DNA from: Candidatus Solibacter usitatus
GTDB taxonomy: Bacteria > Acidobacteriota > Terriglobia > Bryobacterales > Bryobacteraceae
Length of the DNA: 38,930 nucleotides
NCBI GenBank assembly: GCA_016191645.1
Contig: JACPVQ010000211.1
Coordinates: 1-38,930 of the forward strand
Reading direction: 5' to 3'
The notes under the pieces were generated by a model. It saw nothing but the letters and a program-made list of their open reading frames with translations, ran no database searches and had not been told where the DNA came from. Shown here one piece after another: positions 1 to 23,993 of the stretch; position 1 is the first letter of the stretch, and each line of letters starts with the position of its first letter. Position numbers and translations under genes: made by a program.

Positions 1-149
1 GCATATCTCCTGATCTGCGTGGCGGTCTCCTGACGGACTCTGTTGGCAGTAATCGGCTTGCGGGTACGGCTGCGCAGCAGCGGATGGCCTCTCGCGAGGC
101 CTTGCGGTATCTGGAGATCCCGCCGCAGATCTGGAGATCTGCCCCACAA
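1..149. repeat. Palindromic repeat element, copy 1 (left end at window edge)
   Basis: This gene-free stretch aligns along its whole length with the element at 19873-20045. The last 41 bases (109-149) are identical to 20005-20045, and the left part is a diverged version of the same sequence. It ends in 'gcagatctggagatctgc' followed by cccacaa. In this copy the left arm is mutated, so the terminal inverted repeat is imperfect. It lies upstream of the first gene in the window. It may be a MITE-like or REP-like non-coding element; no transposase is seen here. Confidence 0.75.
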
Positions 150-175
150 CCAAGGAAAATCTTTGCGGCTTGAGT

Positions 176-235
176 AGTACATTGGGCCCCGAGGCCCGAA
201 GGGACAGGCCTGGGGACCTGCCCACAAGTACATTG
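176..235. repeat. 9-bp direct repeat flanking a 42-bp GC-rich palindromic segment
   Basis: The sequence agtacattg occurs at 176-184 and again at 227-235. Between them lie 42 bases with short hairpins (for example gggccc...gggccc-like runs) ending in acctgcccaca, which resembles the right end of the larger repeat element. The layout looks like a small insertion with a 9-bp target duplication. It lies just upstream of the AGGAGG ribosome-binding site (240-245) of the next gene. Insertion is an inference. Confidence 0.4.
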
Positions 236-1921: not shown

Positions 1922-3301
1922 ATGATGAATCGTAGAAGAGCCCTCGGGACAATCCTTGGCGCGGCCGCATCGATGCCCGCTCAAGCCGCACGCAAGTCCA
2001 ATATCGTTTTCATTCTGGTGGACGACTTACGCTGGAACGCTCTCGGCTATGCCGGGCATCCTTTCGTCAAGACGCCAAACATCGACCGCGTCGCTCGCGA
2101 AGGCGCAATCTTTAAGAACAATTTCGTTACCACCCCGCTGTGCTCGCCATCTCGCGCCAGTTTCCTCACCGGCCAATACGTGCGCTCGCACACGGTGAAA
2201 GGCAATGGCGACAACGCGGAACTGAGCCACAAGCTGATCACATTCCAGAAGTTGCTGCGCGATGCCGGATACGAAACGGCGCACGTTGGCAAGTGGCATA
2301 TGGGGAATGACGACACTCCGCGTCCCGGTATCGACCGTTGGGTGAGTTTTCGCGGACAGGGTCAATACAACGATCCTCCATTGAATGTCGATGGTCAGCG
2401 CATCACGCGCGAGGGTTACATCACCGATCTTCTGACGGATTACTCTGTGGAGTTCATCAAGAAGCCGCGGACGAAACCATTCTGCCTGTACCTGGCGCAC
2501 AAGGCGATTCATGGACCGTTCACTCCTGCCGCGCGTCACGCCAATCTCTTCACCGGTCAAACAATCGCGCGTACCGCGAACGCGAAGGACAGCCTGGAAG
2601 GAAAGCCGATGTTGCAGCGGGAATTGCCGCTGACCCCCGCGAAGAAGGCGAACAAGAAGAAGGGTCCCGAGGGTGGCGGCGGCGGATCAAGCGACGAATT
2701 GATTCTCAACCAGCTGCGCTGCCTTACCTCGATTGATGAAGGCGTCGGACGAATCTGGAAGGCGTTGGAGGAGATCAAGGCGCTGGACAACACGCTGTTT
2801 ATTTTTACCAGCGACAACGGATACTTCTGGAGCGAACACGGATTGGGCGACAAGCGCGCGGCCTACGAAGAATCGATTCGCATCCCGATGGCGGCCCGCT
2901 ATCCGAGGCTGATCAAAGCGGGCGGATCCATCGACGAGATGACTTTGAATATCGACATCGCTCCCACTTTCCTGGAATTGGCTGGCGCGCCCATTCCGAA
3001 AACCGTCGCCGGCAAGTCAATGCTCTCCCTCATGGGCGGCAACAAGAAGGGATGGCGGACGAGTTTCCTCTGCGAATACTACATGGAGCAGCAACAAGCC
3101 CGCGTGGCCACATGGGAGGCCGTTCGCACCGCGCGCTGGAAGTACATTCATTATCCGGAGTTGAAAAACATGGACGAACTGTACGACCTCAAGGCCGATG
3201 CCGGCGAAATGAAAAACCTGGTTGCCAATCCGGGAGCCCGCAAGGCGCTGGATACCATGCGCAAAGAACTCGACAAATATCGCAAGGAGATTCCCGCATG
3301 A
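1922..3301 (+). CDS. Sulfatase, type I formylglycine-dependent
   Basis: The 459-aa protein is an arylsulfatase-family hydrolase that should cleave sulfate esters. It starts with an Arg-rich leader (MMNRRRALGTILGAAAS) that may be a Tat-type export signal. The metal-binding aspartates are at 34-35 (LVDD), the maturation motif is C74-S-P-S-R, and the second metal site is TSDNG (D298, N299) followed by EHGLGDK. Cys74 would have to be converted to formylglycine. A Lys-rich then Gly-rich insert (about 241-257) interrupts the fold. An SD-like ggagg lies about 9 bases upstream. The stop overlaps the next sulfatase start as ATGA, so the two are translationally coupled. The substrate cannot be read from the sequence. 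Confidence 0.92.
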   Translation: MMNRRRALGTILGAAASMPAQAARKSNIVFILVDDLRWNALGYAGHPFVKTPNIDRVAREGAIFKNNFVTTPLCSPSRASFLTGQYVRSHTVKGNGDNAELSHKLITFQKLLRDAGYETAHVGKWHMGNDDTPRPGIDRWVSFRGQGQYNDPPLNVDGQRITREGYITDLLTDYSVEFIKKPRTKPFCLYLAHKAIHGPFTPAARHANLFTGQTIARTANAKDSLEGKPMLQRELPLTPAKKANKKKGPEGGGGGSSDELILNQLRCLTSIDEGVGRIWKALEEIKALDNTLFIFTSDNGYFWSEHGLGDKRAAYEESIRIPMAARYPRLIKAGGSIDEMTLNIDIAPTFLELAGAPIPKTVAGKSMLSLMGGNKKGWRTSFLCEYYMEQQQARVATWEAVRTARWKYIHYPELKNMDELYDLKADAGEMKNLVANPGARKALDTMRKELDKYRKEIPA

Positions 3302-4695
3302 GCATGAACTTGACACGTCGTGATTGGCTGCTCTCTTCATTTGGCGTAGGTGTGGGACTGGCACAGAGCCCGCGCAAATTGAATGTGCTGATGATCGCCG
3401 TTGACGACCTCAACAATCGCCTGCATTGCTACGGCGATCAGGTGGTGAAGACTCCGAACATCGACAGGCTCGCCAAACTGGGTGTTCGCTTTGATCGCTC
3501 CTATTGCAACTATCCGCTATGTAATCCTTCGCGCACGTCGCTGCTGAGCAGTCTGCGTCCCGACAAGACGAAGATTCTCAACAACAACGTCCCGCCACGC
3601 ACTTACATCAAGGACGCAGTGATGCTGCCGGAATACTTCCACAACAACGGCTACTTCACGGCGCGCGTCGGCAAGATCGCGCACGGCCGTTTTGAAGATG
3701 CCGTCAAATGGGATATTTCGGAGTTCGCCATGCGTGGAGAAGTAGACACGAAGCAGGCGAGGAAGGCGCAGAAAAAGAAGAGGGAGCGCGCCGGCGGCGG
3801 CGACGGCGAACCGGGAAAACTGACGTGGCTGCAAACGGATAACCGCGACGAACAGGAGCCGGACGGGCACACCGCCGTGCGCATCTCCGAACTGATCGAG
3901 AAGAACCGCGCCAAGCCGTTCTTCATCGCCGCCGGGTTCCACAAGCCGCACCTTCCGTGGGTCGCTCCGAAAAAGTATTTCGACATGTACAAGCCGGAAA
4001 TGATCACGCTGCCGGACACGCCCGCGGATGATCTGGACGACATTCCTCCTATCGCGCTCACTCATACGGCCGGCGAGAAGGGCATGTCGGAACTCGAGCG
4101 GAAGAAGGCGATCTGCGCCTACCACGCGGCGACAACGTTCATGGATGCGCAGGTCGGCGTGCTGCTCAACACAATGGATCGCCTGAAACTTTGGAACAAC
4201 ACCGTTGTGTTTCTGTTTGGCGATCATGGATGGCACCTCAATGAGCATCATGGCCTGTGGCGAAAGATGACAGTGTTCGAACAGGCCGCGCGCGCACCGC
4301 TCATCATGGCGGCTCCGGGCAGGCAGAAGAACGCCGCCTGTCCGCGATTAGTGGAGTGGGTGGATTTCTATCCAACCTTGGCCGAACTTTGTGGACTGCC
4401 GAAGCCAAAGGGTTTGGACGGTACCAGTTTCGTGCCTCTGCTCGACAATCCGCAGCGTCCATGGAAGAAAGCCGCCTACACGGTGGTGCAGCATGGCAGC
4501 ACGCTCGGCCGCAGTGTGCGCACGGAGAGATATCGCTACACCGAGTGGGGAACGCCTTCGGTTGCCGAGCTCTACGATCACGAAGGCGATCCGAAAGAGT
4601 ATCGCAACCTGGCGAAGGACCCCAAGCAAGCTAACGTCATTCGTCAGCTTCAGCTGCTACTAAACAATCCCGATCTCGCCAAACCCGGCGCGTAG
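3298..4695 (+). CDS. Sulfatase, iduronate-2-sulfatase-like
   Basis: The 465-aa start at 3298 is chosen because ATG overlaps the upstream stop (ATGA) and gives a Tat-like leader MSMNLTRRDWLLSSFGVG; the longer ORF in the track only reads back into the upstream gene. The motifs are VDD near residue 36, C75-N-P-S-R for formylglycine formation, and GDHGWHLNEHHGLWRK with FEQAARAPL downstream, a pattern typical of the iduronate-2-sulfatase branch. Residues 151-172 are a Lys/Arg-rich then Gly-rich insert much like that in the upstream sulfatase. The protein is probably exported and acts on a sulfated sugar or related compound. The next gene begins directly after its stop codon. Confidence 0.92.
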   Translation: MSMNLTRRDWLLSSFGVGVGLAQSPRKLNVLMIAVDDLNNRLHCYGDQVVKTPNIDRLAKLGVRFDRSYCNYPLCNPSRTSLLSSLRPDKTKILNNNVPPRTYIKDAVMLPEYFHNNGYFTARVGKIAHGRFEDAVKWDISEFAMRGEVDTKQARKAQKKKRERAGGGDGEPGKLTWLQTDNRDEQEPDGHTAVRISELIEKNRAKPFFIAAGFHKPHLPWVAPKKYFDMYKPEMITLPDTPADDLDDIPPIALTHTAGEKGMSELERKKAICAYHAATTFMDAQVGVLLNTMDRLKLWNNTVVFLFGDHGWHLNEHHGLWRKMTVFEQAARAPLIMAAPGRQKNAACPRLVEWVDFYPTLAELCGLPKPKGLDGTSFVPLLDNPQRPWKKAAYTVVQHGSTLGRSVRTERYRYTEWGTPSVAELYDHEGDPKEYRNLAKDPKQANVIRQLQLLLNNPDLAKPGA

Positions 4696-10570: not shown

Positions 10571-13500
10571 ATGTCGGGCATGCGAGTCATGCTGCGAATC
10601 ATTCTGGGCGTCCTGGCCGCCACCGCTCTACATGCACAAAGTTCGGCAACGGCAATCCAGGGATTGGTGAAGGACTCATCCGGCGCTGTGGTGCCCGGAG
10701 CGCTGGTTACCGCAACTCACACCGGCACCAATCAAATCTATCGCTCCACAACTACGGGCGACGGCTATTATCAAATCCCCTTGCTGCCCGTCGGCACATT
10801 CGACGTGGACGTTTCTTTTTCCGGTTTCAAGAAATCGGTGCAGCGGGGACTGCTACTGCAGGTCGACGAAAAGATTCGCGTGGACTTCACACTCGAACCC
10901 GGCGCGGTGTCTGAATCCGTTACGGTGCAGGCCAGCGGCACGCTTGTGGACACTTCGGGGGCAACGCTTAAACAGGTGATCGATTCGCACCGCATGACGG
11001 AGCTTCCGCTGAACGGCCGCAGCATGCTGGAACTGCAACTGCTCTCGCCCGGCGTGGTAAGCGACCCCACTACGGGAGGCGGGCTGCAATCGCCAACCAC
11101 GGGTTTCTCGGTGAATGGCGGCCGCGCCAGTACGGTCAACTATCTTCTGGATGGCGGCGACAACAACGATTATTTCTTCAACACCGCCTCGAACTTTCCC
11201 ATTCCCGACGCCGTCCAGGAGTTCAGCATGTCGTTGAACAACTTTACGGCGGAACAGGGCAAATCTTCGGGCGGCGTGGTGAATGTGATCACAAGGTCAG
11301 GCACGAATGTCTATCACGGCGGCCTGTTTGAGTTTCTTCGCAACGATGCGCTCAATACAAGAAACTTTTTCTCGGCGAGCGTGCCGAAGCTGCGTCAGAA
11401 TCAATTCGGCGGCGTGTTCGGAGGTCCGCTGTCCATTCCAAAACTCTACGCGGGCAAAGACCGTACATTCTTCTTTCTTTCCTATCAAGCTACTCGGATC
11501 CGATCCGGGCTGACACAATCGAACATCTTCGTTCCCACGGCGCTAGAGCGGAATGGCGACTATGCGGCGTCAACTCAGAAGCCCACAGACCCGAACAATC
11601 GCCAGGCATTTCCCGGCAGCGTAATTCCCGCCTCGCGTCTGGACCCGATTGCAAAGACCTTCATCGAGCGCTTTGTCCCGCTGCCCAATCTTCCCGGCGG
11701 CCAGTACAGCTTTAATAACGACGGGTCCACCGATGTCGATCAAGGGTTGCTGCGGATTGATCACTCCTTCTCGAACTCGCACAAGTTCTACGCGCGCAGC
11801 TTCACGCAGCATGAGCGCCGCGCCGATGGCGGCGGGCTGCCGGAGTTCCGCAACTGGCAGGACTTTCGGTCCTGGAACGCGTCCGCCGGCGATTCGCTCA
11901 TTCTGCGTCCCACGTTGGTCAACTCGTTTTCTATCACGATGAATCGAACGCAAGCGCAGGCCGGCCCCGTTGTGTCTCTTCGCTGGCGCGACCTGGGCGT
12001 GAATGTCCCCATCGCCGGCCCCGTGACCGACCCGACCAATAGCAACCTCACCGTGAGCAACGCGTTTCAAATGTCCACGCGCAACGCCATCTATCTTCCG
12101 CGAACAGTGGTGCATCTGAGCGAGTCGCTCAGCTATACGAGCGGGAGCCACTTCTGGAAGTTTGGATTTGAAGGGCGCGGCGTCGCCGAGATTCGCCGCG
12201 TCAACGGCAACATCGATGGCAACTTCACTTTCTCCGGTCAATTTTCGGGGGTGCCGGTCGCCGATTTTCAACTTGGCCGCCCCTCGCGTTACGTGCAATC
12301 GGCTAACACCTCCGAAGGGTTGCCGCGGCAATATCAGATCGCCTGGTTTGTGCAGGATGACTGGAAAATAACACCCCGTTTGACACTGAACATAGGACTC
12401 CGCCTGGAACCATTTCTACCCATCGTCGATCAGCACGATCAGCGTCCGGCGTTTCGCCCGGGTCAAAAGTCTACGCAGTTTCCCAACGCGCCCGCGGGAC
12501 TGGTGTATGCGGGCGATACCGGTATCGATCGCGGCATTGTGTCAGGTCAGTGGAATCACTTTGCTCCACGCTTTGGATTCGCCTACGATCCGTTTGGTCG
12601 CGGCAAGACCAGCATTCGCGGCGCGTATGGAATCTTCTGGGACATGCCGGGCGACCAGTACAACTACGGCTTCGGGAACCCGCCGTTTGTGGTCACCTAT
12701 ACCGTGAACGCACCGGCGAGTTTTCGCGATCCCTATGCGGGCCAACCTACGCCGGTCATTCCGTATCTGCCACCTCGCTCCGCCGCGGAGCGCGGCGCGA
12801 CGCAGTTTGCACGGCCCGTGCCAGTGGCTTCCCTCGATGCTGGATTTACGAACTCCTACATGCAGCAGTTCAACTTCAGCGTTGAGCACGAGATCGCATC
12901 GAACATGAAACTCACCGTTGCGTATGCGGGCGCGAAGGGAACCCACCTCGCCGTAGTGCACGAGCTGAATGCCGCGCGCTTCAACGCGGCGGCGACAGTT
13001 GCGAACACCGATACGCGCCGCCCGTTCGCCCCCGATTTTCAAAGTGTGACGGAATTGCGGCCCGCCGCCACCAGTATCTACAACGCATTGCAGGCAACGG
13101 TGAACCGTCGTTTTGCGCGGGGCTTCACCTTGCTTGCCAGCTACAGTTGGGCTAAGGGGATCGACACGACATCCATCAACACGCCCGCATCCAGCGGCTT
13201 TCAGAATCCGAATGATCTACGTTCGGACCGCGGCCCCTCGGACACCGACATCACGCATAGCGTGACTGCTTCTTCCATTTGGGAGATTCCCTGGTTTCGC
13301 CACCAAGCGCCGCTCCTTCGCGGCATGCTTGCGGGATGGCAACTGGCGGGAATCACGCGGCTCCGGTCCGGATTGCCATTCTCGGTGACCAGTGGACGCG
13401 ACAACTCTCTTACCGCCATTGGCCGCGATCGCCCGAATGTCCAGGCGGCCACGGCGCTGCCCGGAGACCGTTCCCGCTCGGACACGATCAACGAGTATTT

Positions 13501-13780
13501 CAATCGAGCCGCGTTTGTTCAAAACCCCAACGGGACCTTCGGCGTCGTGGGGCGCAACACGATGCGCGGCCCCGGGGCATCTATCGTCGACGTGAGCCTG
13601 GCGAAGAACTTCCGGCTGGGCGAATCGCTGCGGCTCACGTACCGCGCCGAGGCTTTCAACGCGTTCAACAACGTCAACTTTGGAAACCCGGCGGCCAGTC
13701 TTCTTGCGCCCAACTTCGCGCGGCTCACGTCGGCATCCGGTTCGCGTGTTTGGCAGATGGCGCTCAAGATGAATTGGTAA
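10571..13780 (+). CDS. Oar-like TonB-dependent outer-membrane receptor with carboxypeptidase-regulatory domain
   Basis: The 1069-aa protein has a signal peptide (MRVMLRIILGVLAATALHAQ) and then a carboxypeptidase-regulatory-like beta domain (about 30-110: IQGLVKDSSGAVVPGALV...GYYQIPLLPVGTF). A TonB plug follows (LPLNGRSMLELQLLSPGVV; VNGGRASTVNYLLDGGDNND), then a long beta-barrel. The last residue is Trp (MALKMNW), as usual for outer-membrane barrel signals. Such proteins are expanded in Solibacter-like Acidobacteriota and are thought to import or bind large substrates. It lies 38 bases after the propeller/PHP gene in the same direction, so the two may form a surface binding and processing unit. 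Several ATG codons occur at the start; the first is used but 10580 is equally good. Confidence 0.9.
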   Translation: MSGMRVMLRIILGVLAATALHAQSSATAIQGLVKDSSGAVVPGALVTATHTGTNQIYRSTTTGDGYYQIPLLPVGTFDVDVSFSGFKKSVQRGLLLQVDEKIRVDFTLEPGAVSESVTVQASGTLVDTSGATLKQVIDSHRMTELPLNGRSMLELQLLSPGVVSDPTTGGGLQSPTTGFSVNGGRASTVNYLLDGGDNNDYFFNTASNFPIPDAVQEFSMSLNNFTAEQGKSSGGVVNVITRSGTNVYHGGLFEFLRNDALNTRNFFSASVPKLRQNQFGGVFGGPLSIPKLYAGKDRTFFFLSYQATRIRSGLTQSNIFVPTALERNGDYAASTQKPTDPNNRQAFPGSVIPASRLDPIAKTFIERFVPLPNLPGGQYSFNNDGSTDVDQGLLRIDHSFSNSHKFYARSFTQHERRADGGGLPEFRNWQDFRSWNASAGDSLILRPTLVNSFSITMNRTQAQAGPVVSLRWRDLGVNVPIAGPVTDPTNSNLTVSNAFQMSTRNAIYLPRTVVHLSESLSYTSGSHFWKFGFEGRGVAEIRRVNGNIDGNFTFSGQFSGVPVADFQLGRPSRYVQSANTSEGLPRQYQIAWFVQDDWKITPRLTLNIGLRLEPFLPIVDQHDQRPAFRPGQKSTQFPNAPAGLVYAGDTGIDRGIVSGQWNHFAPRFGFAYDPFGRGKTSIRGAYGIFWDMPGDQYNYGFGNPPFVVTYTVNAPASFRDPYAGQPTPVIPYLPPRSAAERGATQFARPVPVASLDAGFTNSYMQQFNFSVEHEIASNMKLTVAYAGAKGTHLAVVHELNAARFNAAATVANTDTRRPFAPDFQSVTELRPAATSIYNALQATVNRRFARGFTLLASYSWAKGIDTTSINTPASSGFQNPNDLRSDRGPSDTDITHSVTASSIWEIPWFRHQAPLLRGMLAGWQLAGITRLRSGLPFSVTSGRDNSLTAIGRDRPNVQAATALPGDRSRSDTINEYFNRAAFVQNPNGTFGVVGRNTMRGPGASIVDVSLAKNFRLGESLRLTYRAEAFNAFNNVNFGNPAASLLAPNFARLTSASGSRVWQMALKMNW

Positions 13781-16372: not shown

Positions 16373-17215
16373 GCGAATGCTTCCGGGCCAAAACCAAATT
16401 GGCGGCCGCAGGCCGCTGCCCGATCTTTCATTGTCGCCAGGATGCGGTCCTGAAAGCCAGCGCGAAACCAATCCTCGTGGTGGTGATGGGCGGCGATGCG
16501 AAACGATTGCTCGCGCGTGGTAGCGCCCATGGGTTTGCGTTCGCGCAAGTGCAACGGGTCGGCAATGATCGCGTGCGGCGATGCGGCCATGGCGAGATCC
16601 AGCAGATGTCCGGCATCACAAGGCAAAATCGGCGCAAGAGTTGCGTGCGCATCAATCCCAGCACCGTTCAGCCGCGAGATCACTTCGAACCTCTCGTCCA
16701 TGGGCGCGCAATGCGGTTCATACAAACGGCGCACGGCGTCGCGATCCGTAGTCACCGAGAAACTCACACGCAGCCTCGTGCGTCTGGACAGCAGGAGCAG
16801 TTGGTCCAAATCGCGCAAAATGAGCGGGCCTCGCGTTTGCATCGTAAACACCGCCGGCGGACACGCCAACAGCGCATCGAGAATCTCTGGCATCAATCGG
16901 CGCTGCTCCTCCGCCAGTTGATAGGGGTCTACCAGAGGCGAACAATAAATGCGCTGCGAAGGCGAGAGCTGCTTTCGAAGAAGTTGCGGCGCGTTGTCCT
17001 TGAACGTTGTGAACTGCCCCCCAGCGACGCCAATCGTCCGGTTGCAGTCCGCCGTAGAGCCCCATCGTGGGAACGTAGCAATACGTGCACGCGAAGGTGC
17101 AATTGCGCGCCGGCGTTAGCGAATGTGTGAAACCGGCTTCGGCGATGAACCCCGATGTGCGCGTGAGTATCCCGCGCGATTGCTGGCCAAATATACGGAA
17201 CCGGTCCGCGCTCAC
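16354..17215 (-). pseudogene. Spore-photolyase-like radical SAM protein, frameshifted
   Basis: The gene would start at GTG 17215, which overlaps the S9 peptidase stop (GTGA). Frame one reads SGFIAEAGFTHSLTPARNC39TFAC43TYC46YVPTMGLYGG, a radical SAM CxxxCxxC cluster motif of the SPL-like family. It then runs out of register at a C-run of six (17017-17022, plus strand). The correct continuation lies in the next frame: QFTTFKDNAPQLLRKQL ... IYCSPLVDPYQ ... SFSVTTDRD. Removing one base gives an uninterrupted 286-aa protein, the expected family size. Thus it is either a true one-base disruption or a homopolymer sequencing error; the otherwise perfect conservation favours a recent or artificial event. 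The function of this family beyond an iron-sulfur/SAM radical reaction is not well defined. Confidence 0.85.
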
Positions 17216-19839
17216 GGCTCGCGTACGACGCGAAAGCCGATATAATCCGGTCGCGGCTTCGACACCGATTTCGCATCCACGGGTTGATCCGCACTGCCGC
17301 CAAGCGCTTTGCCCGTTCCATCTTTTGCCACTGCCCACTCGGCCGCGTTGCCGCCGAGATCGAACACGGGATCATCGCCTGCGCCGGAGTGCGATCCAAC
17401 GGGCTTCAGAAGCGCGCCCGGTCCCAATCCTTCGATTAACGACGACAGCCGGCGGGCATCGTCGAAGTTGACCGCGTATCCGGCCCACGCATCCAGTGTG
17501 TTGTCCAGCTTGTTCGCCGACAACATTCCGCCGGCCTCTTCCTCGGTCGGCAGGCGGTATTTCTTGCCCGTCTTCCGGCTCAGCCATTCGCAATACTCCT
17601 TCGCTTTTTCAAAGGAAACGCCAGTAGCCGGAAATGTTTGGGTACCTTGCGCCACCGCGAAGGAACCGTCGAACGCCTTAAACTGCGCGCGCGTCACTTC
17701 AAAGCGGCCCACTTCCAACGAACCACGCTCCACCATCTCCGGCGTGTCGCTCAAGCCGCGGCGCTTCAACATGGCGGAGAGAGGCGAGTTGTCGCGCAAC
17801 GCCTCGTTCGTGTCCGGCAAAGTGCGGAACAGGTACTGATCGAACCACGCAAGCTCTTCTTCCACTTTGCGGCGCTGATGAACGTATTTTCGCGGACCAT
17901 GCGCTTCGCCTGGAAATAGAATGAATCGAACATCGGTCTTTTCCAGATGCTTCAGGGCGCGATAATGCTGCCAGCCTTGTTCGGTGGGCACCTGTTTGTC
18001 CTCCGTGCCGAAGAAAATGATAGTTGGCGTACGCACTTGGTCCATGCGAAACAGCGGCGATTTCTTGATGTACAGGTCCGGATCTTCCAGCGGTGTTTTG
18101 CCGATGTAGTAATCGTCGAATGAGTGACCGAACTGGCAATTGCCCCAATCGCTGATCCAATTCACGTCGCCCGCGCCCGCGGACGCCACCTTGTACCTCG
18201 TGGTCCGTGTCGTCAATTCAATGGAGATAATGGACCCGTTCGACCACCCCATTACGCCGAGTTTGTCCGCATCGGCCAAGCCCTTGGCGATCAAGGCATC
18301 GACACCGCGCTCGACATCGAACCATTCGAACTCGTTATAGTTTCCGCCCGAAATCGATTCACCCCACTGCAGGCCGTAGTTGGAACTGCCGTGATAGTTC
18401 GGCTTCATGACAAGCGCGCCGCGCTGGGCGAAGAGTTGAACGGGATAGCCCCATCGATCGCTGAACATATCGAGATCCGCGCCGTGTGGGCCGCCGTGAA
18501 TCATCACCACAAGCGGGTACTTCTTGCCCGGCTGATAATCGTGCGGATAGTAGAGCAACCCTTCTACTTGCTCATTGCGCGCACCCTTCCACGTGATGGT
18601 TTCCGAACGCGCCAGCGGCTTTTTCTTCCATGCGGCGTTCGAATCCGTAACCTGCTTTGGCGTTTCGATTTTACTCCCGTTGAGCGTAGCGCTGAACCAT
18701 TGGTCCGGCTTACTTGCCGTCGTGTGCCGGTAGACCAATCGTGTGCCGGAAAGCTGCATCCCGAAAATGTTGGCGCTGTGTTCGCCTTCGAGAAACTCGC
18801 GCGTCCAACTGGCGCCACTTCGGCGATACCTTGCAATGCGCGGACGCACTCCGTTTGCGAGCGAAGCGATCAAACCGTCCTCGGTGACGACGTAGCCTTG
18901 CGCAAGTCCGTTCGGCCAATCGAGCGGAACCTCGCTGATCGCGCTGGTGGCGATCTCGTAATAGTAGAGCCGCTCGATGGACGCGTTGAGGTATTTCGGA
19001 TGCGTCGTATACGGTGAGGCGAAGTAGAAACCCTTGCTATCCTGCGCAAATTGAGCAAAGCGGAGGAGCAGCTTTCCGTCCGCGAAGAGCCGCCGCTCCG
19101 AGTTGTCTTTGAGATTGCGCAGGAAGCTGATCGGGCGGACCTTCTGATCCCAAACGTAGCTCAGGCTCTGATCGTGCGTGGTCACCGCCCATTCGCCGTT
19201 CGGGCTCACTATATGGTTCGAGATGCGGTCGCGGTTTTCCGTGATGCGTCGCGCCTTCTTCGATTGGACGTCGAAGCGGAACAGCCGAGTAGGCACGACA
19301 TGGCGCTCGTCTTCGACAACCTGCGAAGTATCTTTGCGCTCCTTGATCTTCTGCTCATGGAGGCTGTCGTCTTCGGAAGCGACCAGCAGGAGCGTCGTGT
19401 CGTCGATCCAGGAGAAGGAAGAAACGCCTTTATCCATGCGCGTGGCCGCCGCCGGTTCGCCGCCGCGCGTGTCGATGAGCCAGACCTGCATTCCCCCGCG
19501 CCCTCGCCCACCCGCGGCTTCCACCGGGCCCGCTGCGTCGTCCGCCTTGCGCGAACTTAGAAACGCGATGCGGCGGCCGTTGGGAGAGAATCGCGGCGAG
19601 GAGTGGTTATCCTTGCCTTGCGTGAGCGCGACCTCGTAGTCTTCCGTGAGATTGCGCAGCGCAAGGTTGGAAATGCTCTCGCCTTTCTCGCGATCCATCT
19701 TCGATTTGACGTAGACCAGGAGTTTTCCGTCTTTGGAGATCTCCATTTGCGACGCCGATTCGGCAAGTAGAAGATCGTCGACAGACCATTTGGCGCACCA
19801 CGCGCATGCGGCGATAGCGAGAATCAGAGAGTAGCGCAT
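17212..19839 (-). CDS. Exported S9 prolyl-oligopeptidase-family peptidase with C-terminal FGE-like domain
   Basis: The start at 19839 gives a signal peptide (MRYSLILAIAACAWCAK) and 875 aa; the longer ORF in the track merely reads through the upstream repeat. An N-terminal WD/PD40-type propeller (about 30-420) is followed by the alpha/beta hydrolase domain with HGGPHG, the nucleophile motif GWS533NG, Asp614 (GTEDKQVP) and His647 (GEAHGP). Residues about 700-875 form a second domain like formylglycine-generating enzyme/SUMF1 (VGRFEVTRAQFKAFD, GVSFEKAKEYCEWLS, YRLPTEEEA, GGNAAEWA, GFRVV). The paired active-site cysteines of real FGE are missing near the end, so sulfatase activation is unlikely. 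This domain may instead bind something or resemble an EgtB-type fold. It also has a Gly-rich loop. Confidence 0.88.
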   Translation of the reverse strand: MRYSLILAIAACAWCAKWSVDDLLLAESASQMEISKDGKLLVYVKSKMDREKGESISNLALRNLTEDYEVALTQGKDNHSSPRFSPNGRRIAFLSSRKADDAAGPVEAAGGRGRGGMQVWLIDTRGGEPAAATRMDKGVSSFSWIDDTTLLLVASEDDSLHEQKIKERKDTSQVVEDERHVVPTRLFRFDVQSKKARRITENRDRISNHIVSPNGEWAVTTHDQSLSYVWDQKVRPISFLRNLKDNSERRLFADGKLLLRFAQFAQDSKGFYFASPYTTHPKYLNASIERLYYYEIATSAISEVPLDWPNGLAQGYVVTEDGLIASLANGVRPRIARYRRSGASWTREFLEGEHSANIFGMQLSGTRLVYRHTTASKPDQWFSATLNGSKIETPKQVTDSNAAWKKKPLARSETITWKGARNEQVEGLLYYPHDYQPGKKYPLVVMIHGGPHGADLDMFSDRWGYPVQLFAQRGALVMKPNYHGSSNYGLQWGESISGGNYNEFEWFDVERGVDALIAKGLADADKLGVMGWSNGSIISIELTTRTTRYKVASAGAGDVNWISDWGNCQFGHSFDDYYIGKTPLEDPDLYIKKSPLFRMDQVRTPTIIFFGTEDKQVPTEQGWQHYRALKHLEKTDVRFILFPGEAHGPRKYVHQRRKVEEELAWFDQYLFRTLPDTNEALRDNSPLSAMLKRRGLSDTPEMVERGSLEVGRFEVTRAQFKAFDGSFAVAQGTQTFPATGVSFEKAKEYCEWLSRKTGKKYRLPTEEEAGGMLSANKLDNTLDAWAGYAVNFDDARRLSSLIEGLGPGALLKPVGSHSGAGDDPVFDLGGNAAEWAVAKDGTGKALGGSADQPVDAKSVSKPRPDYIGFRVVREP

Positions 19840-19872
19840 ATTAGGAACATGGTAGCTACGATTTAGGGCTGG

Positions 19873-20045
19873 TGGGGCAGATCTCCAGATCTGCGAGGCG
19901 GTCTCCAGACCGGCCCTGCCGGTACAAGACCGGCTCTGCCGGTACTCATCGTGCGCCGAACTCGGCTGCAACGCAGCCGATTGCCTCTGGCGAGGCCATG
20001 CGGGATCTGGAGATCCCGCCGCAGATCTGGAGATCTGCCCCACAA
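19873..20045. repeat. Palindromic repeat element, copy 2, with 22-bp perfect terminal inverted repeats
   Basis: The left end (19873-19894, tggggcagatctccagatct...) is the exact reverse complement of 20021-20042. Inside, a second imperfect arm (ggcggtctccagacc / ggatctggagatcccgcc) extends the fold, and ggctgc-aa-cgcagcc is a small hairpin. The last 41 bases equal the last 41 bases of copy 1. It sits between the cyclase and the S9 peptidase gene, so it may act as a transcript hairpin or terminator or carry a promoter between the two halves of this block. ORF calls across it on either strand (MGQISRSA...) are artefacts of the palindrome. No clear target duplication is seen. Confidence 0.85.
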
Positions 20046-21027: not shown

Positions 21028-22524
21028 CTATTGCCTGCGGCGAGGCGGCGGCGTGTAGAAATCCGGCGGGAAGTCGGCGGCATGGCTCGCTTTGGGATTG
21101 CGGCGATAAGAGACTCCGCCGCGATCCGGATAGAGAGCCATTTGCATACCGCCGGTCTTCTCCAGAATCTCGAAAAGTTTGTTGCGCATTTGCGTAACGG
21201 TTTGCTGATGCGCGGGGCTGAGAATCAGGTTCTGCATTTCAGCCGGATCTTCTTTCAAATCGTATAATTCATCGACGTCCCAGATGCCTTGATAACGGAT
21301 GAACTTGTAGCGGTCGCCGCGAAGGGCATGCATAGTGGGCGTTTGGGGAAAGTTGCGCTCCCAGAAATACTCGTAGAGCAGTTCCGTGCGCCAAGGGACC
21401 TGCTTGCCTGACGCGAGCGGTAGCCAGCTGGCGCCATCGCCGCCGCTGGGAGCCGTGACACCGGCGGCTTCGAGGAAAGTCGGCATGATATCGACATTGG
21501 CGACTACGCTCTCCAACTTCTTACCTTTGCCGAAAAGTTCCGGGCAGCGCGCCAGTAGCGGCACACGCATCGACTCTTCATAAGCGGTGCGCTTGTCGAT
21601 CAGACCGTGCTCACCGAACGCGAAGCCGTTGTCGCCCATATAGACGATCAACGTGGAATCCAGGTCGCCGCGCTCACGAAGAGCATCGAGTATGCGGCCC
21701 ATACTGTCGTCCACACCGGCCAAAGTCTCGGCGTATTGGCGATAGTAATCGGCGATGTCGAGATCGGAATGATAAGGAAATTCCATGCCATGCCAGCTGT
21801 TGCGCTGGTTCTGCACCCACATCGGACGCAGTTGCGAAGGAGCCGCCGGAGCCATCGATTTGGGAAACTTGAACTCCTTGCCTTTGTATTTTCCCTTGTG
21901 CCGCTCGGCTGGAAAGAAATCGGCATGCACGGCCTTGTGCGAAAGGTAGATGAAATAAGGCTGCTCTCGCTTCAGGCTCTTCAACCAATCGAGAGTGTAA
22001 TCGGTAAGCTCATCGGTGATGTGGCCTTTTTGAGGAACCTTCTTGCCGTCCACATTGAGACCGTTCGGCGAAGGCAGATACGTACCCTGCCCGCGAAAGC
22101 TGACCCAACGGTCGAAGCCCGGCTGCGGCGCGTCGGATTCGCCGCCCATGTGGAACTTCCCGAAGAAGCCGGTCTTGTATCCGGCTCTCTGAAGCAGCTC
22201 GGGGAAATAGCGCGTGCCTTTGGGAATCGCCGTATTGTTGTCGATGATGCCGTGTTTATGCGCGTACTTGCCGGTAAGGATGGACGCGCGGCTGGGGCTG
22301 CACAACGCGGTGGTGACGAAGGCGTTCGTGAGGTGAACGCCTTCGCGGGCCAGCGAATCCAGATGCGGGGTCTCCAGCCACTCCTGTGCTTTCATGAAAC
22401 CGAGGGCATCGTAGCGGTGATCGTCGGTGAGGATAAAGATGATATTGCGCCGCTTGCGTGTTTGCTGCTGCGCCAACGCCGCGGGCACGGCAAGAGCGGA
22501 CGGAAGAAAGTCTCTCCGGTTCAT
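21028..22524 (-). CDS. Sulfatase, type I formylglycine-dependent
   Basis: The ATG at 22524 overlaps the permease stop (ATGA) and gives a Tat-like leader (MNRRDFLPSALAVPAALA) on a 498-aa protein. The motifs are LTDD (about 33-35), C75-S-P-S-R for formylglycine, and YMGDNGFAFGEHGLIDKR for the second metal site. The C-terminal part (LYDLKEDPAEMQNL) is standard for arylsulfatases; the last 30 residues are a basic/proline-rich tail. A Lys/Gly stretch (RHKGKYKGKEFKFPK) lies near residue 220. It likely acts outside the cytoplasm on a sulfated compound, and the coupling to an APC permease upstream suggests use of its product or co-regulation. Confidence 0.92.
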   Translation of the reverse strand: MNRRDFLPSALAVPAALAQQQTRKRRNIIFILTDDHRYDALGFMKAQEWLETPHLDSLAREGVHLTNAFVTTALCSPSRASILTGKYAHKHGIIDNNTAIPKGTRYFPELLQRAGYKTGFFGKFHMGGESDAPQPGFDRWVSFRGQGTYLPSPNGLNVDGKKVPQKGHITDELTDYTLDWLKSLKREQPYFIYLSHKAVHADFFPAERHKGKYKGKEFKFPKSMAPAAPSQLRPMWVQNQRNSWHGMEFPYHSDLDIADYYRQYAETLAGVDDSMGRILDALRERGDLDSTLIVYMGDNGFAFGEHGLIDKRTAYEESMRVPLLARCPELFGKGKKLESVVANVDIMPTFLEAAGVTAPSGGDGASWLPLASGKQVPWRTELLYEYFWERNFPQTPTMHALRGDRYKFIRYQGIWDVDELYDLKEDPAEMQNLILSPAHQQTVTQMRNKLFEILEKTGGMQMALYPDRGGVSYRRNPKASHAADFPPDFYTPPPRRRQ

Positions 22525-23993
22525 GATTTCACCTGCTTCGAAAATGCATAGTAAACCGGCACGCCTACGAGAAGGATCACCAAACCTGGCCACGTGGTGG
22601 AGGTGCGGTAGACGAACAAGAGCACAAGGATGGTGGAAGCGCCAAACATGTACAGCGCAGGGATGACGGGGTACCCGAACGCCCGATACGGACGATCGGC
22701 GTCTGGGCGCGTCTTGCGCAGACGGAAGATGCCGGCGATGGTCAACACATAAAAGATAAGCGCGGCGGAGATGACGTAATCGAGCAGGTTGCCGTAGAGG
22801 TTGCCGTATTTGCCGGTAGCGGGGTCGTAGGTGCGCGGAAGAACCAGGGCAGCCGACCAGATGCCTTGCATCACGAGCCCTTTGGCGGGGACACGCTGCG
22901 CGTTGAGTTCACCCGCGCCCTGGAAGAACAGCTTGTCGCGCGCCATGGCGTAATAGGCTCGCGCGCCCGCGAGCACCAGGCCATTGGCGCAGCCGAACGT
23001 GGAGACCATGATGGCAAGGGCCATGATGGTTACGCCGAGTCCGGGGAAGATGGCGTTGAGCGTTGCCGTTGCGACGCGGTCCGCCGGCGCGTGTTGGATT
23101 GCATCAAGGGGCAGCGTAACGAAGTAGGCTACGTTCGATAGCAAATAAAGCGTAATCACAATTCCCGTGCCGAAGGCGAGCGAGAGTGGAATGTTGCGGC
23201 GCGGGTCCTTCACTTCGCCCGCCGTGAACGTGATGTTGTTCCAGGCATCGGCGGAGAAGAGCGATCCGGTTTGCACGACGCAGATGGCCGCGATGAGACC
23301 GAAGAGCGTGGTTGCGTCGAGGCCGGGGACCACCGGGTCGAAGCCGCGCGCGGTCCATGCATCGCCGAAGTTCGTGGAAACGGCGTTCGCATTCCAGCCG
23401 AGCAGCAGGCCGATGATCACGAGCGCCGCAAGCGATCCGATCTTCGCCGATGTAAAGACGTTCTGAATGAGACGGCCATATTCGAGTCCGCGCGTGTTGG
23501 TCCAAGTGAGGAGCGCGATCAACAGGAGGCCCACGAGTTGCGCCGTGGACAACGAAATCGCGTAGCCCGTGGAAAGGTGAAGCGGCGGTACGATGTAGTT
23601 CGTCTCCGAGATGGACGGCACGAGGACGCCAAGAAATCTTCCAAACCCCACCACTACGGCAGCGATGGTTCCGCTTTGAATGACGGCGAACAAAGCCCAT
23701 CCGTAAAGAAATCCGCTGAGCGGATTGAACGCCTCTCGCAAGTAGACATACTGGCCGCCCGCGCGCGGCATCATCGACGCGAGTTCTCCATAGGAGAGTG
23801 CGCCCGCCATTGTGAGAAGCCCGGTGAGGAGCCACGCCATCAACACCCAGCCAGGACTTCCTATGGTGCGCGACATATCGGCGGACACAATGAAGATGCC
23901 CGATCCGATCATGGACCCGGCCACCACCATGGTTGAATCGAATAGGCCGAGGCCGCGTTTGAATTCCGTATCGAGTGCGTGATCGTTCGCCAT
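22521..23993 (-). CDS. APC-superfamily amino acid permease
   Basis: The 490-aa protein has about 12 hydrophobic membrane segments. The first segment has the APC signature of unwound helix 1 (VVAGSMIGSGIFIVSADM), and helix 2-3 shows GALSYGELASMMPRAGGQYVYLREAF, typical of the LAT/APC amino-acid transporter branch. It should transport an amino acid or amine across the inner membrane, by antiport or proton symport. It is 27 bases after the oxidoreductase gene and overlaps the sulfatase start, so it belongs to the catabolic block. The specific substrate cannot be predicted. Confidence 0.9.
   Translation of the reverse strand: MANDHALDTEFKRGLGLFDSTMVVAGSMIGSGIFIVSADMSRTIGSPGWVLMAWLLTGLLTMAGALSYGELASMMPRAGGQYVYLREAFNPLSGFLYGWALFAVIQSGTIAAVVVGFGRFLGVLVPSISETNYIVPPLHLSTGYAISLSTAQLVGLLLIALLTWTNTRGLEYGRLIQNVFTSAKIGSLAALVIIGLLLGWNANAVSTNFGDAWTARGFDPVVPGLDATTLFGLIAAICVVQTGSLFSADAWNNITFTAGEVKDPRRNIPLSLAFGTGIVITLYLLSNVAYFVTLPLDAIQHAPADRVATATLNAIFPGLGVTIMALAIMVSTFGCANGLVLAGARAYYAMARDKLFFQGAGELNAQRVPAKGLVMQGIWSAALVLPRTYDPATGKYGNLYGNLLDYVISAALIFYVLTIAGIFRLRKTRPDADRPYRAFGYPVIPALYMFGASTILVLLFVYRTSTTWPGLVILLVGVPVYYAFSKQVKS

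Follow-up and report, generated by a model that had tools for sequence, protein, structure and literature searches.

Several described systems come close to the repeat reported here: REPINs (PMC3116915); REPtrons, in which REPs headed by GT(A/G)G flank a RAYT gene in inverted orientation (PMC2817692); the TIRtrons or TIRYTs and their TIR repeat families, among them those of Koribacter and other Acidobacteria (PMC3733652); and subclass 2.4 of TnpA-REP, with 'double foot' REPs and a median HUH-to-Y distance of 88 aa (PMC6006769). In other species TnpA-REP has been shown to bind and cut single-stranded REPs (PMC8266576), and RAYTs bracketed by inverted repeats have already been published, in Acidobacteria as well (PMC2817692, PMC3733652). 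Here we analysed a 38,930-nucleotide stretch of Candidatus Solibacter usitatus DNA (the window). A repeat within it is very probably a non-autonomous, REPIN/BIME-like miniature mobile element that is mobilised in trans by an HUH/Y1 RAYT (TnpA-REP). It belongs to a large, apparently undescribed family of REPIN/RAYT type, amplified in this species; we found no report of the family in the literature searched, a search outside which most subscription journals lie.

The initial annotation had described the repeat as a palindrome with perfect 22-bp terminal inverted repeats, a stem extended by an inner imperfect arm, and 41 bases at its right end identical with a copy at 1-149. The sequence bears out that the ends, GTGGGGCAGATCTCCAGATCTGC (19872-19894) and GCAGATCTGGAGATCTGCCCCAC (20021-20043), are exact reverse complements; their pairing is perfect as claimed, but over 23 bp, one base more than stated. 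The inner imperfect arm is also present (88% over 41 nt); rather than extending one stem, however, it consists of separate local hairpins (Table 1). The 41 identical bases, ATCTGGAGATCCC...CCCCACAA, are there too, as the last 41 of the copy and inside a stretch of 90% identity over 83 nt. As single-stranded DNA the window copy folds at -69.8 kcal/mol, compared with -34.8 kcal/mol (sd 2.9) for shuffled sequences (z = -12), and a covariance model of the family matches it with 155.6 bits at 19872-20044. It owes its extra length to a 20-bp direct duplication of its own. The second copy is cut off at its left because the window is a whole contig (C231); the match to a flank-module remnant lies 8 bases past it.

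Table 1. Positions of the element copies and their parts in the window
Feature	Position	Strand	Basis
Full miniature element copy, 172 bp	19872..20043	+	31-copy alignment; covariance model match
Left foot GTGGGG, GTGG-type	19872..19877	+	at nearly every left end, ~107 copies
Hairpin H1 GCAGATCTCCAGATCTGC, REP unit	19877..19894	+	both-side changes in covariation count
Hairpin H2	19895..19916	+	right arm degenerate in window copy; covariation count
20-bp direct duplication GACCGGCYCTGCCGGTAC..	19908..19947	+	sequence; absent from other aligned copies
Hairpin H3, CGGCTGC-AAC-GCAGCCG	19963..19979	+	1-3 copies in other elements
Hairpin H4 ATTGCCTC..GAGGCCAT	19980..19999	+	copy alignment, pair counts
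Hairpin H5 GCGGGATCTGGAGATCCCGC	20000..20019	+	copy alignment, pair counts, covariation
Hairpin H6, reverse complement of H1 (inverted REP)	20021..20038	+	covariation count
Right foot CCCCAC	20038..20043	+	oriented copies
Second copy, degenerate	1..148	+	covariance model match 122.9 bits
Degenerate remnant of 66-bp flank module B	149..182	+	fuzzy match to inner module part
Module D remnant, then further REP-like palindrome (BIME-like cluster)	183..224	+	judged by eye

The two copies had been taken to suggest a family of small non-coding elements, and a search of the genome (4.47 Mb in 267 contigs, fragmented and 79% complete) confirmed this with at least 150 copies, far from a repeat present only twice. 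BLAST returned 298 candidates, and all 40 of those scored were matches; a covariance model built from 31 copies matched each of the 150 candidates scored with it, almost all along the full model. Exact matches to the 16-base hairpin core CAGRTCTCCAGAYCTG number 341, divided between the strands as 172 and 169; its reversed control pattern does not occur in the genome. The copies sit in unrelated gene neighbourhoods, which argues against their being parts of one larger duplicated gene region. Among 60 genomes of relatives, 11 congeners included, none has a full copy and two have a few short arm-like matches; the absence of full copies indicates that the amplification is recent or confined to the lineage. 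Contigs C53, C82, C111, C121, C137, C231 (the window itself), C234 and others start or stop inside copies, which means in practice that the assembly breaks at the repeat, and that the true copy number is probably higher. No Rfam family matched the window above its gathering score.

Turned to one orientation, the copies share a canonical element of ~153 bp with the order GTGGGG-H1-H2-spacer-H3(1-3x)-H4-H5-H6-CCCCAC. In the consensus, H1 (GCAGATCTCCAGATCTGC) is followed by H2 (GAGGCGGTCTCCAGACCGCCTC) and ~25 variable bases, then by one to three copies of H3 (CGGCTGCnnnGCAGCCG), H4 (ATGGCCTC..GAGGCCAT), H5 (GCGGGATCTGGAGATCCCGC) and H6 (GCAGATCTGGAGATCTGC). Almost all left ends carry the foot GTGGGG, and most right ends CCCCAC. 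Under local pairing, 8 pairs are changed on both sides in 31 copies, a number reached by none of 500 shuffles. One long terminal stem, considered as the conserved unit, yields only 2 such pairs, which 298 of the 500 shuffles also reach, and was rejected. Over ~100 copies the cells changed on both sides number 31 in H1 (shuffle maximum 9), 54 in H2 (20), 11 in H5 (3) and 42 in H6 (23); pairing H1 with H6 gives 16, against a shuffle mean of 13 and maximum of 20. The inner pairs of H1 vary among AT/AT, GT/AC, AC/GT, AA/TT, AG/CT, GC/GC and TT/AA around a nearly fixed CTCCAG. The compensatory changes are thus local to each hairpin, and the long terminal stem is therefore not the conserved unit. 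According to fold computation, H1 and H6 are still able to pair with each other energetically; the local and the end-to-end paired forms may both exist, with covariation supporting only the local one.

Two Y1_Tnp genes are present in the genome. No RAYT gene was seen in the window; the associated RAYT/TnpA gene, for which a search had been proposed, lies elsewhere in the genome, inside a copy of the element. On contig C62 the order is GTGGGG-H1-H2-(RAYT gene)-H3-H4-H5-H6-CCCCAC, with all six hairpins in sequence. The gene (contig position 60-647) is placed between H2 and H3, is separated from H2 by the spacer TGCCGGAAGTGA, and has an intact ORF of 192 aa. Its product scores 83.1 bits against NCBIfam NF047646 (REP-associated tyrosine transposase; cut-off 80, exceeded by two genes of the genome) and 39.7 bits against Y1_Tnp (cut-off 23). 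The HUH motif (H111-V-H113), W149 and Y170 are invariant over 13 RAYT homologues, and H113 is 57 residues from Y170. It is the one intact cognate RAYT found, and it lies on the very end of a contig. The 153-bp repeats have these hairpins in this order too, with ~25 bp in place of the gene, and this shared order indicates that they are gene-less versions of the C62 unit. The second RAYT gene (contig C167) adjoins its own, smaller hairpin family with TTCA loops; hairpins with TTCA/TGAA loops lie next to it at L053:2047-2155, and the family occupies about a dozen loci in the genome. At L276:500-1060 (contig C66), a decayed RAYT fragment is found between hairpins of a third type, GACACTCGTGTC / GACACGAGTGTC, joined to a truncated or partial copy of the present element.

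RAYT homologues are found in 22 of the 61 genomes searched (own genome counted). They also occur in many Bryobacterales and other Acidobacteriota assemblies, and Ignavibacteria, Verrucomicrobia and others have homologues that are more distant. When bracketing was defined as an inverted repeat score of at least 15 between the gene flanks, inverted arms bracketed the gene in 60 of 86 non-redundant RAYT loci, compared with 8 of 258 mismatched flank pairs. GTGGGGC or GTAGGGC opens many of these arms, and the palindromes that come next have loops that vary by RAYT. Several distant RAYTs at L192-L206 (Ignavibacteria, Bacteroidota) have arms of a different type, GTAGCACAG...CTGTGCTAC, each a double-foot palindrome.

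To describe the insertion sites we considered 73 copies having both ends. The initial annotation had proposed looking for target duplications; none of 3 bp or more occurs in these copies (0/73), and 2-bp flank matches number 4, against 2.9 in shuffles. Such absence is expected of Y1 transposases. The base next to the foot is T in 70% of copies on the left and A in 75% on the right; modules shared between copies explain part of the bias, but A still leads (59%) in outward-read flanks without modules. When 92 copies were compared with crude ORFs, 65 lay between them (34 convergent, 30 tandem and 1 divergent) and 26 overlapped one, several of the latter because the element, with some of its frames open, lengthens the ORF at its start; the median distance to gene 3' ends is 24.5 bp. 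In the window, a mechanical ORF call of 943 aa (17212-20043) runs through the element, starting in its foot; the S9 peptidase gene it represents probably starts at 19839. The C-terminal part of this gene matches an FGE-sulfatase domain, and three sulfatase genes lie in the window (1922-3301, 3052-4695 and 21028-22593), alongside an amino-acid permease and, at 10571-13780, a large barrel protein of the outer membrane. We found no clean empty site for the window copy, since the S9 peptidase gene is not beside the cyclase gene in the relatives fetched. An outer-membrane receptor lacks its last ~30 residues at L075:1501-1654, where the element stands in their place; all of its homologues run on to a conserved C-terminus. 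This indicates insertion into a gene, with a misjoin at the repeat possible in a short-read assembly.

Three outer modules recur on the feet of the element: A (25 bp), B (66 bp) and D (~43 bp). Module B is sometimes in tandem, in arrays of about four, and D is often followed by another REP. In a sample biased to loci near the element, 47 of 63 module B starts, like all 15 module A starts, are at a REP foot, and a further B precedes 13 of the B starts. The idea that B is an independent repeat hosting insertions of the element is unsupported, as 47 of its 63 starts abut the foot. Head-to-tail arrays of B are found at L277:590-860 (C150) and on C147 and C225, and an array abuts an element foot on C150 and C51. 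By analogy, the modules resemble BIME-like clusters whose flanks are amplified alongside the element and, given their recurrence, the amplified unit may in some cases extend past the 153-bp core.

A rival reading, prompted by the perfect 23-bp terminal inverted repeats and by more than 150 copies of near-constant size, is a classical MITE that originated from a DDE insertion sequence and is recognised through those repeats as double-stranded DNA. That reading is already largely refuted and has next to no probability left: none of the 73 copies with both ends shows a target-site duplication of at least 3 bp, no covariation links the two termini, each of which is itself palindromic, and the gene found inside the same ends encodes a Y1/HUH transposase. 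Improbable too, if slightly less so, is a regulatory RNA or transcript-end element (terminator or RNA stabiliser) selected at gene 3' ends, with spread as a secondary matter. The strong avoidance of divergent intergenic regions, the closeness to 3' ends, the compensatory stem changes and the very stable fold would suit it; Rfam has no match, however, congeners lack full copies, a RAYT gene lies inside one copy, and promoter avoidance would follow just as well if harmful insertions were selected against. A like avoidance of promoters has been published for REPs (PMC3733652). It is also very unlikely that the C62 RAYT came to lie between two independent repeats by chance or false assembly. The gene is at a contig end, and repeats break the assembly, but H1-H2 upstream and H3-H4-H5-H6 downstream keep the order and orientation of one element, only a few tens of bases away from the gene, and homologous RAYTs elsewhere are bracketed in the same way (60/86). 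Counting against the mobile element are the single intact cognate RAYT found, at a contig end, the lack of a clean empty site, and the chance that in this fragmented assembly a locus taken singly, such as C62 or L075, might be a false join through a repeat.

The compensatory changes are not in themselves proof of selection, because hairpin-templated repair could make them too. Repair templated by a hairpin is a known mechanism for imperfect palindromes (quasipalindromes), and we regard it as a possible, if doubtful, source of the changes in place of selection for recognition by a transposase. The changes are confined to local hairpins with arms only ~4 bases apart, as such repair would have it; the CTCCAG/CTGGAG centre of the outer hairpins, however, is near-invariant while the stem varies, which points to loop recognition, and RAYTs of relatives each have their own loop. 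Repair of this kind competes with only one support of the mobile-element reading, not with the reading itself.

The 153-bp repeats are either internal-deletion derivatives of the gene-bearing element on C62 or descend from the same ancestor. A miniature element mobilised in trans by a RAYT would have the following cycle. Where replication exposes single-stranded DNA, the RAYT would bind the GTGG-tagged hairpin (loop TCCA) on one strand, and its tyrosine would cut beside the foot. The whole inverted doublet could then be moved or copied elsewhere with no duplication of target bases; insertions would survive mainly just downstream of genes, and local compensatory changes would keep each hairpin recognisable while its sequence drifts. 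We infer transposition from sequence, having observed neither a transposition nor an excision event.

Tentatively, the lineage might keep RAYT elements as whole transposons, with a gene-bearing unit and a miniature of one six-hairpin anatomy, and with RAYT and loop type diverging together (TCCA for one RAYT and TTCA for the other in the same genome). If so, this transposase class, generally portrayed as single-copy and domesticated, would here be seen at an undomesticated stage that links IS200/IS605-type transposons with REPINs. With this analysis, a lineage near Bryobacterales gains a large REPIN family and a probable transposase for it; for its phylum, the Acidobacteriota, the literature searched describes only scattered TIR-flanked transposases. 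The many copies, the two pairs of RAYT and loop in one genome and dozens of homologues with bracketing arms form a data set for loop recognition by RAYTs and for the question of how miniatures arise from a gene-bearing element.

As far as sequence can tell, the element has all the marks of the REPIN/RAYT kind: a RAYT gene with intact HUH and tyrosine, inverted flanking palindromes, GT(A/G)G at the palindrome foot, and a highly repeated extragenic inverted doublet. Like REPINs, it has two inverted REPs and a spacer, more than 100 extragenic copies, compensatory changes and an associated RAYT gene. Unlike in REPINs, each end has two different hairpins (H1+H2 and H5+H6), the spacer adds H3 (one to three times) and H4 to give ~153 bp in total, the foot is GTGGGG, and in one element this hairpin chain encloses the transposase. 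REPtrons share the GT(A/G)G head, the GC-rich short-loop palindrome, the inverted gene flanking and the many dispersed copies, but here the arms are compound, with two hairpins, further hairpins lie downstream of the gene, and the host belongs to the Acidobacteriota instead of the gamma-proteobacteria. TIRYTs occur in the same phylum and likewise have a Y1 transposase between inverted repeats that are also dispersed and partly self-complementary; we rejected this assignment because GGGGCAGA has C at position 5, not the A/T of the GGGGWSAS consensus. The family here also consists mainly of complete doublets, not single TIRs. Subclass 2.4 repeats end in 5' GT[AG]G and 3' C[TC]AC, comparable to GTGGGG ... 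CCCCAC, but an HUH-Y distance of 57 residues against their median of 88 does not allow the assignment, and the repeat here is a hairpin chain, not one long stem. The kind of element is already known; the family is a new and large one, with an unusually complex hairpin chain and a gene-bearing relative in the same genome.
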